This document shows, in pieces, positions 26,131-53,147 of a stretch of 64,000 nt of DNA. The stretch comes from Bacteroidota bacterium (lineage in GTDB: Bacteria > Bacteroidota > Bacteroidia > 2-12-FULL-35-15): contig CANNHN010000004.1 in assembly GCA_947504725.1 (NCBI GenBank), positions 199,203 to 263,202 of the forward strand. The letters run 5' to 3'. A program made the translations under genes and the position numbers. The stretch's first letter is position 1. Every line of letters begins with the position of its first letter. The notes under the pieces are model-generated. The model did no database searches and was not told the origin of the DNA. It saw nothing but the letters and a program-made list of their open reading frames with translations.

Positions 26131-26349
26131 TTTAAACACATAGACACATAGAAAAAACGGAAAAAGGGTTGTGTGTTATTACATAGAAAAATAAATTTTT
26201 TACAGAGACATCTCTCTATCCTTGAAGCTTGCTTCAAGCCTATGAAAATCCACAGAAAAAAAGAGTAAACAAATTAGAATAATTGTAATTTTACAGCACA
26301 AGCACATTCGTTACTTAAAAACAAAAAACTATGTGTCTATGTGTTTGAA
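26131..26349. mobile_element. Decayed copy of a GxxExxY inverted-repeat cassette
   Basis: An 18-bp perfect inverted repeat, 26134-26151 (AAACACATAGACACATAG) and 26329-26346, bounds this lipA-gap intergenic region. The ends match those of the intact cassette at 51927-52416 except for one position in the repeated unit. Inside, 26175-26208 (GTTATTACATAGAAAAATAA and on) matches 52085-52119 of the intact GxxExxY gene with one substitution and a 1-nt deletion. The remnant is about 219 bp against 490 bp and no longer encodes a protein. A separate hairpin (26221-26238) is embedded in it. Confidence 0.8.
26221..26238. repeat. Small hairpin CTTGAAGC-TT-GCTTCAAG
   Basis: A perfect 8-bp stem inside the decayed cassette. 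It has no counterpart in the intact copy, so it was probably inserted after the cassette. Confidence 0.7.
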
Positions 26350-51557: not shown

Positions 51558-51815
51558 ATGGCAAATCACAAATCGAGTATCAAAAGAATTCGTTCTAACG
51601 ATGCTAAAAGATTAAGAAATCGCTACCAAGCGAAAACAATGCGTAATGCAGTAAAGGAATTAAGAGCAGACGATAGTAAAAAATCGGCTTCTGAAAAATT
51701 ACCTAAAGTTGTTGCTATGGTAGATAAATTAGCTAAGAAAAGCGTTATTCACAAGAATAAAGCAGCTAACTTGAAATCAAAGTTGACTAAAAAAGTAAAC
51801 GCGCTTAAAAAATAA
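51558..51815 (+). CDS. rpsT: 30S ribosomal protein S20
   Basis: An 85-residue, Lys-rich helical protein that binds 16S r[23 protein letters not shown] and the C-terminal [20 protein letters not shown] are typical of S20. It lies 65 bp after tRNA-Glu and has a strong terminator 36 bp after its stop. A TAATTTTG box at 51524-51531 may be its own -7 element, though no -33 partner is clear. Confidence 0.97.
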
Positions 51816-51926: not shown

Positions 51927-52416
51927 TTTAAACACATAGAAACATAGTTTTAATGAATTCAAATGTTGTCACAGAAGTATTTAGATGATTTGACTTACGA
52001 AGTCGTAGGTGCTGCTATTGAGGTGCATAAAACATTGGGAAGAGGGTTGCTAGAAAGTGCATATCATCAATGTTTAAAGGAGGAGTTATTGCATAGAAAA
52101 ATAAATTTTTTAACAGAGATGAAAGTTCCTCTGATATATAAGAATAGAGAACTTGATGTTGATTTTAGATGTGATTTATTTGTTGAACAATGTTTGGTTG
52201 TTGAATTAAAATCCGTGAACGAAATGTCTAGTGTGTTTGAAGCACAGCTTCTAACCTATATGAAACTTTTGAAAGCACCTAAGGGTATTCTAATCAATTT
52301 TAATTGCAAAAATATTTTTCAGGACGGACAGAAAACATTTGTTAACGAGTATTTTAGATTATTACCTTGAAATTTTATCGTAATAATATTTTAAACTATG
52401 TTTCTATGTGTTTAAA
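51927..52416 (+). mobile_element. GxxExxY cassette bounded by perfect 24-bp inverted repeats
   Basis: Left end 51927-51950 and right end 52393-52416 are exact 24-bp reverse complements. Each end holds two iterated 8-mers, ACACATAG followed by AAACATAG when read inward. The single gene (51963-52370) starts 12 nt after the left repeat and stops 22 nt before the right one, so the whole unit is 490 bp with no other content. No transposase is present and I see no convincing target-site duplication. A decayed copy with matching ends and matching internal sequence lies at 26131-26349, which is the main reason to call it mobile. Confidence 0.75.
51963..52370 (+). CDS. GxxExxY protein (PD-(D/E)XK-like nuclease fold)
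   Basis: A 135-residue cytosolic protein of the GxxExxY family (PDDEXK_3). The naming motif is GLLESAY at residues 28-34. Nuclease-fold residues are visible as Glu20 (AAIEVHKTLG), Asp71 (DFRCDLFVEQ) and the Glu81-x-Lys83 pair in VVELKSV, so the catalytic core looks intact. The role of the family is not established; the fold suggests DNA cleavage. The gene fills a cassette with 24-bp inverted repeats, 12 nt from its start, leaving no room for a normal promoter inside the cassette. It sits between the rpsT terminator and radC. Confidence 0.92.
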   Translation: MLSQKYLDDLTYEVVGAAIEVHKTLGRGLLESAYHQCLKEELLHRKINFLTEMKVPLIYKNRELDVDFRCDLFVEQCLVVELKSVNEMSSVFEAQLLTYMKLLKAPKGILINFNCKNIFQDGQKTFVNEYFRLLP

Positions 52417-52454: not shown

Positions 52455-53147
52455 ATGGAGGAAAACAAATTAGGAATAAAATCATGGGCAGAAGAAGATC
52501 GCCCGAGAGAGAAGTTGATGGAGAAGGGGAGACATGTGTTAACAGAAGCAGAATTAATAGCCATTTTGATTGGTTCGGGAAGTAGAGATGAAACAGCAGT
52601 TGAGCTTTCAAAACGCATATTAGCTAGTGTTGGAAATAATTTAAACGATTTAGGAAAACTGGGTGTTAGTGAACTTGTTAAATTTAAAGGAATAGGAGAA
52701 GCCAAAGCAATAAGTGTTATGGCAGCCATGGAATTGGGAAGACGGAGAAAAGAAACAGAATTAGTTAAGCGAAATAAAATTTCTGTAAGTAAGGATGTTT
52801 ACGATATTATGAAGCCTATTCTTTTAGATTTACCACATGAAGAATTTTGGTTGTTGATTTTGAATCGTGCGAATTTGGTTATTAAAAAAGAATTGATTTC
52901 TCGTGGAGGTGTTTCCGGAACAGTGGTGGATACAAAAATTATTTTTAAAGCAGCTGTGGAAAATTATGCCTGTTCCATTATCATTTGTCACAATCATCCT
53001 TCTGGAAATTTAAAGCCCAGTGAAGCAGATGTTCGGATTACTAAAAATATTAAAGATGCAGGAAAATTAATGGAAATTCCATTGTTGGATCATTTGATAA
53101 TAACTGAAAATGGATTCTATAGTTTTGCAGACGAAGGAATGATGTAA
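52455..53147 (+). CDS. radC: RadC-family JAMM-domain protein
   Basis: A 230-residue protein with an N-terminal helix-hairpin-helix region (about 30-95, LVKFKGIGEAKAISVMAAME) and a C-terminal JAMM/MPN domain with the zinc motif His179-x-His181-Pro-Ser-Gly...Asp192 (ICHNHPSGNLKPSEADVR) and the upstream Glu in LPHEEFWLL. The JAMM motif predicts a metalloprotease or related hydrolase. A direct role in DNA repair, from which the name comes, is doubtful. The GxxExxY cassette ends 38 bp upstream of the start and probably replaced or displaced part of its leader. Confidence 0.93.
   Translation: MEENKLGIKSWAEEDRPREKLMEKGRHVLTEAELIAILIGSGSRDETAVELSKRILASVGNNLNDLGKLGVSELVKFKGIGEAKAISVMAAMELGRRRKETELVKRNKISVSKDVYDIMKPILLDLPHEEFWLLILNRANLVIKKELISRGGVSGTVVDTKIIFKAAVENYACSIIICHNHPSGNLKPSEADVRITKNIKDAGKLMEIPLLDHLIITENGFYSFADEGMM

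Follow-up and report, generated by a model that had tools for sequence, protein, structure and literature searches.

The window, a 64,000-nt stretch of a Bacteroidota genome, holds a compact one-gene cassette that is probably the gene-bearing, autonomous form of a family of small mobile elements. The nuclease it encodes would act in trans on the cassette's own ends and on those of gene-less relatives elsewhere in the genome. This element family is apparently widespread and undescribed. The literature searched, from which subscription papers and preprints were mostly absent, contained no description of such a system and only incidental mentions of GxxExxY (PF13366/TIGR04256).

The cassette is intergenic, with rpsT (51558-51815) on one side and a RadC-family gene (52455-53147) on the other. 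The earlier note had described an intact GxxExxY gene between exact inverted repeats, and the coordinates, translation and profile matches all agree with that description (Table 1), including the 12 nt between the gene and the left arm and the 22 nt between the gene and the right arm. The arms also pair over 27 nt at 96% identity (51927-51953 with 52390-52416). Each contains the two iterated 8-mers that had been reported, ACACATAG followed by AAACATAG, which occupy positions 51932-51939 and 51940-51947 of the left arm. Only one gene fits between the arms, that of the PDDEXK_3 nuclease, and the claim that no transposase is present there was correct. The 8-mer ACACATAG occurs six times in the window against a chance mean of 1.3, a count reached in 1 of 100 shuffles, and all six copies sit in two elements, the cassette and the ends of the stretch at 26136-26344.

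Table 1. Positions of the cassette, its parts and related features in the window, with the S23 loci used for comparison.
Feature	Position	Strand	Remark
Left terminal inverted repeat, TTTAAACACATAGAAACATAGTTT	51927-51950	+	Exact 24-bp inverted repeat
GxxExxY gene, 135 aa	51963-52370	+	Predicted PD-(D/E)XK nuclease fold, RecB/Cas4-like
Internal segment 1, GTTATTGCATAGAAAAATAAATTTTTTAACAGAGA	52085-52119	+	Coding DNA common to gene-less elements; blastn
Internal segment 2, GTGTTTGAAGCACAGCTTCTAACCTATATG	52233-52262	+	Match by eye
Right terminal inverted repeat	52393-52416	-	Exact reverse complement of left arm
Gene-less element, 209 bp (locus L012)	26136-26344	.	Same end type, ACACATAGACACATAG...CTATGTGTCTATGTGT
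L012 segment matching the gene's coding DNA	26175-26208	+	94% over 35 columns
Perfect hairpin CTTGAAGCTTGCTTCAAG of the conserved inner core, L012	26221-26238	+	
S23 loci L173-L202			e.g. L175 (own genome), L176, L178, L198, L201

The encoded protein matched the TIGR04256 GxxExxY profile (E 1.5e-38; 131.8 bits against a curated cut-off of 35) and PF13366 PDDEXK_3 (E 5.4e-37; 127.2 bits against a cut-off of 22), the only Pfam family that it matched. A sequence search of the PDB returned no relative. An AlphaFold2 model built from 45 sequences (pLDDT 96.6, pTM 0.90) had its best solved-structure match in the Cas4 protein SSO0001 (Foldseek E 2.5e-4; VIA Z 9.4 over 100 residues, rmsd 4.0), followed at Z 5.5-7.6 by restriction enzymes, RecB-type nucleases of AdnAB/AddAB and Hjc. 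A PADLOC Cas4 profile also matched, weakly (E 3.7e-4). In the 45-sequence alignment, E31, D71 and K83 never vary and E81 and Y99 hardly do, while at least 90% of the first alignment has Q95. The nuclease that had been predicted from the fold is consistent with this confident model and its conserved D71, E81 and K83; the modelled fold and D...ExK catalytic residues are those of the PD-(D/E)XK superfamily. We confidently model the protein as a minimal Cas4/RecB-like nuclease with intact catalytic residues and predicted activity. A dN/dS of about 0.11 (0.11/0.97) relative to the homologous locus L024 points to purifying selection on the protein.

GxxExxY was found in 53 of the 59 relatives sampled, often in many copies. 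Among plasmid records it occurred in 8 of 72,556, and among 50,697 phage records in none, a pattern unlike that of ordinary insertion sequences. Carriage by phages or plasmids was rejected as the spreading route, since the family is essentially absent from both record sets. The few GxxExxY genes of viral contigs (L139-L142) are flanked by repeats of another kind, AAATTTTACTTAAAATTT, in direct and inverted orientation.

The same end type as that of the cassette's left arm recurs at 22 further elements of the genome. Our genome-wide statements rest on pattern searches and retrieved sites in an assembly of 3.40 Mb (99.6% complete), in which 23 paired inverted sets were detected. One of these, present as a single copy, carries the gene and has 480 bp between its outer 8-mers; the other 22 are gene-less and measure 123-241 bp, so that every pair except the gene-bearing one is shorter than 250 bp. 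The pattern search of these 23 sets revealed no other gene or transposase between CATAG-type ends. An insertion sequence or other transposase as the autonomous partner was therefore rejected, as the genome holds no longer element with these ends. One further strong arm, unpaired (C13), was considered as a transposase end and discarded: it belongs to a decayed gene-less element, of which it forms half, and the ORF next to it is sigma-factor-like. The earlier note had also reported a second, decayed copy in the window. This was a misreading: the stretch in question is one of the 22 gene-less elements, with intact ends and about 34 bp in common with the gene's coding DNA.

The 22 gene-less units have the features by which MITEs are described, being short, non-coding and multi-copy, with common terminal inverted repeats and presence/absence polymorphism. 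Their outer flank reads TTTWA in nearly all copies, with A at -1 in 46 of 46 and T at -4 in 46 of 46; flanks that read TTWA form part of a palindrome and may come from the element or from the target. At three loci of this genome (L008, L009 and L020), a long palindrome, CACATAGCCC...GGGCTATGTG with ACACATAG nested in it, replaces the usual inner core.

That inner core ties the gene-less elements to the gene itself. It is recognizable in 17 of the 22 and reads roughly CATAG-AAAAATAAATTTTT-ACAGAGA...TCTCTATG-TGAAGC..GCTTCA-CTATG; gene-less elements of other species (G008, G015 and G035) contain the same core. In 14 of the 22, the DNA matches internal segment 1 of the coding sequence (blastn E 2.6e-10 to 1e-3), and by eye the second part of the core, the TGAAGC/GCTTCA hairpin with CTATG, has its counterpart in internal segment 2. 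In a comparison with the closest homologues (L024, L025 and L028), the synonymous codons of segment 1 stay the same at 26 of 27 positions and those of segment 2 at 16 of 18, against 136 of 236 elsewhere (both segments 42 of 45; Fisher p 7.5e-7), and the two segments are the best and second-best windows of synonymous conservation in the gene. Since the gene-less elements had already defined segment 1 when we turned to synonymous sites, the conservation is an independent test for it. The limits of segment 2 were set by eye while the codon alignment was visible, and this segment is therefore less strongly supported. RNAalifold folded the inner core into a 4-pair stem with modest covariation, in an alignment that is poor outside the conserved parts. 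In the G028 gene, a 27-bp insert with the palindrome CAAATGTGTAGTACACATTTG lies in the loop of the segment-2 hairpin, and a nearly identical palindrome occurs in a gene-less element of G015; from these sequences, we infer that the G028 gene may be turning into a gene-less element.

We then asked how general such boundaries are among GxxExxY genes. Loci were drawn from the 59 related genomes, about 85,000 scanned species genomes and 6 viral contigs, and, with one genome per species, the best inverted match between the 300-bp flanks was scored at 117 distinct loci. A score of at least 14 was reached at 59% of the 117 loci, compared with 2.7% for mispaired flanks of different loci and, among 181 other ORFs from these loci, 1.7% (p 9e-32 against GxxExxY); about 40% of the homologues have no clear inverted repeat. 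The arms of the homologues consist of iterated CACNNAG-like units (for example, ACCACATAGGCACATAG, ACCACTAAGGCACTAAG, ACCATTAAGGCATTAAG, ACCACAGAGGACACGGAG, ACCACGAAGGACACGAAG and GGAACGCAGAT) and occur in Bacteroidota, Planctomycetota, Chloroflexota, Pseudomonadota and other phyla. The expectation that inverted repeats would bound most homologues was thus confirmed, but the core of ACACATAG, which had been expected throughout, is one of several variants, the others being CTAAG, TTAAG, ATAAG, AAAAG, GGAG/AGAG, GAAG and GAT.

Mapped onto a tree of the proteins from 69 loci, the unit type shows 14 changes, where the minimum is 7 and the shuffled mean 41.3 (0 of 200 shuffles as low), and the five GxxExxY genes of the window's genome have five different ends. 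Both observations argue that the ends follow the gene, not the host. The agreement between end type and protein clade could also reflect plain co-inheritance. Another reading takes the protein for a defence or housekeeping nuclease and the repeats around its gene for unrelated local terminator hairpins that fall within a repeat family by chance; it would account for the weak Cas4 profile matches, the chromosomal distribution and the purifying selection. Given the excess of inverted repeats over other ORFs, this view is already hard to hold, and with the unit variant tracking the protein and the coding segments recurring in dispersed elements, we consider it very improbable.

Other arrangements of the units were seen at individual loci. 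At L047, a tandem array of GGAG/AGAG-type gene-less elements of about 80 bp, separated by the 11-bp spacer AATAAAAACTA, adjoins a GxxExxY gene. Nested within the CTAAG-type elements of L223-L227 (G032) are further elements, whole or partial, with other unit types, as if elements inserted preferentially into one another. The CTAAG-type elements of L232-L234 (58-69 bp) are two arms back to back, that is, pure hairpins. At L144, L146, L147 and L221, a stretch of about 30 bp (CCCCGCGACTGCGCTCGGGATAAACTCCG-like) splits the left arm between two ACAC copies; judging by its recurrence at the same arm position in several species, it would be another small repeat family.

The rpsT-radC site is polymorphic between species. 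The gene is present there only in the window's genome. In the two closest genomes (G035 and G003, with RadC 95% and 93% identical), the site holds a gene-less element with the same ends; other relatives have decayed remains or one arm, and in most distant same-genus genomes the interval is roughly 85-130 bp with no element. The comparison of occupied and empty sites that the earlier note had called for thus found distant relatives unoccupied and sister species with the gene-less form alone. The joined flanks of the 22 elements likewise match unoccupied orthologous sites in relatives at several loci (for example, L008 in G035, G003 and G016; L017 and L011 in G003; L019 in G035) and occupied ones at others. 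Among 16 homologous cassettes, 5 of 120 pairs share a neighbour that is even distantly similar.

The elements at two related loci are flanked by long direct duplications of host DNA. At L028, 60 bp (95%) are duplicated abutting both arms, and at L250, a truncated element, 110 bp (95.5%); in both, the duplication covers the start of a host gene, so that an intact start stays downstream. None of the 22 gene-less elements of the window's genome has a long flanking duplication. Reading target-site duplications from empty sites was abandoned, because the intergenic DNA of the relatives is too diverged. The long duplications, in these two cases, suggest repair synthesis at a break rather than the short staggered cut of a transposase.

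An RNA-level element resembling the 23S rRNA intervening sequences was also considered, in which the arms pair in the transcript with the gene in the loop and the hairpins serve RNA processing, termination or stability, not DNA mobility. RNA copies of the arms and inner hairpins would fold, the elements examined are intergenic, and the Coxiella intervening sequence, an S23 gene with upstream tandem heptamers, is a close architectural parallel (PMC4990558). However, the elements occupy many unrelated sites and are gained and lost between species, which requires a DNA step, and the modelled protein resembles DNA nucleases best. We regard this explanation as distinctly unlikely.

Repeat numbers across genomes bear on what moves the elements. 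CACATAGRNACATAG was found in 27 and CACTAAGRCACTAAG in 23 of the 59 genomes, with reversed-pattern controls at or near zero. CATAG repeats are present in 13 of 13 genomes with a CATAG-type gene or fragment, a status that we assigned from sequence identities, compared with 14 of 46 without one (p 5e-6 over the 59 genomes and 0.0026 within the genus, both ignoring kinship). Many CATAG repeats also occur in genomes without a CATAG-type gene (30 matches in G035 and 27 in G008), so the gene-less elements outlive the gene, or something else moves them. The latter would be the case if a different enzyme (transposase or host repair system) mobilized the ends and the nuclease gene were cargo captured once. 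The persistence of gene-less elements in genomes without a matching gene fits this passenger role, as do the unrelated 23S_rRNA_IVP/S23 genes, which are bounded in the same genomes by iterated-unit inverted repeats of their own, so that small genes between such ends would be a general pattern. Nevertheless, CATAG ends enclosed no other gene in the window's genome, nor in the listed short-range pairs of several relatives; across phyla, end variant and protein clade are associated; the gene-less elements keep two segments of the gene; and the units of the S23 genes are of a different kind. A passenger role is accordingly an unlikely one, in our judgment.

Returning to the trans-acting nuclease that we favor, we propose the following putative mechanism. 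The GxxExxY protein would recognize the terminal iterated 8-mers, possibly along with the inner hairpins, and would process or cut the DNA there. It would thereby copy or move its own cassette and, in trans, gene-less derivatives with the same ends, and insertion might proceed by repair synthesis at a break, if the long duplications are typical. These data support the earlier note's suggestion of a minimal mobile element that has bounded ends and a nuclease, but not its homing-like copying. Since the gene-bearing form is single-copy and the gene-less forms are multi-copy, the pattern resembles a trans-acting enzyme and its satellites more closely than a self-copying cassette.

We speculate more tentatively, and with less than even expectation, about a further transposase-free mechanism. 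A lone Cas4/RecB-like nuclease might break DNA at the iterated-motif ends, with repair copying the element to new sites and leaving long host duplications behind, and with gene-bearing and gene-less forms being swapped at an occupied site, as the rpsT-radC site might illustrate; the coding sequence would then double as a cis-acting structure that gene-less copies keep, and S23 would perhaps be a second case of a general one-gene class. If this mechanism holds, mobility could be driven by a lone Cas4-like nuclease without a transposase, and the gene of the enzyme would contain its own cis signal. The role of a mobile-element enzyme would explain why GxxExxY, a very widespread and unexplained family, is multi-copy and scattered in its distribution, and it would also explain a large set of otherwise unexplained short ACCACNNAG-type repeats in Bacteroidota and other phyla.

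Several known systems share parts of this organization. Similar to Cas4/RecB-type nucleases (SSO0001 and 4ic1), the cassette protein has the predicted fold, the D...ExK...QxxxY motif order and a weak profile similarity, but it is a 135-aa core without the extra Cas4 elements, it is bounded by its own inverted repeats, and no cas gene is directly beside it, the adjoining genes being rpsT and the RadC-family gene. The PD-(D/E)XK homing endonuclease I-Bth0305I (3r3p) resembles it in nuclease fold and, in concept, as a single-gene mobile unit. However, the Foldseek match is weak (E 0.066), the cassette has no intron or intein, and its homologues have no conserved insertion site: their neighbourhoods are unshared, whereas homing inserts into the cognate allele of one conserved site.

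With insertion sequences and MITEs mobilized by DDE transposases, the cassette shares terminal inverted repeats, internally deleted relatives with common ends and TTWA-like flanks. Nonetheless, no transposase of the DDE, serine or tyrosine type lies between its ends, and the host duplications of 60-110 bp, in two cases, differ from the 2-14 bp that usually flank insertion sequences.

The 23S intervening sequence is likewise a short cassette with one small gene, inverted repeats and tandem units by the start codon; in Coxiella, where it carries an S23 gene, these units are tandem heptamers (PMC4990558). Its S23 (IVP) protein is an unrelated four-helix bundle, its units are of another type, and the intervening sequence is located inside 23S rRNA genes and excised by RNase III, whereas the cassette carries a GxxExxY gene between rpsT and radC. 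In the same genomes as the GxxExxY genes, genes for S23 four-helix bundles are flanked by inverted repeats with iterated units (TTAGATATGAGATTTGAGAT, AGTATCAGGTATCA and GTTTCAGGTTTCA) unlike those of GxxExxY, and 60% of them reach a score of at least 14 compared with 7.7% of mispaired flanks. S23 is possibly a second, independent family of one-gene elements, and cassettes of this kind may thus extend beyond a single protein family.

RAYT-REPIN offers the closest working model. RAYT genes are located next to REPs, and the GxxExxY genes of L067, L071, L135 and L063, each flanked by two complete gene-less elements in direct orientation, are somewhat similar. In RAYT-REPIN, one enzyme, present in single copy, serves a whole population of short hairpins (PMC8049555). 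Both systems combine a single-copy chromosomal gene for a DNA-processing enzyme with many short, hairpin-forming, non-autonomous units, here 22 dispersed units that have the same ends as the gene and match gene-side sequence; in both, gene-bearing genomes tend to hold more units, and units persist without the gene (PMC8049555). In contrast, the enzyme here is of the PD-(D/E)XK Cas4/RecB-like type and not an HUH/Y1 tyrosine transposase, the ends are iterated 8-9-mers and not a REP palindrome, and the units retain segments of the enzyme's coding DNA. By analogy, the cassette would work like RAYT-REPIN without being one, because the enzyme is unrelated. As an independent parallel, it would make general rules for gene-plus-satellite systems testable.
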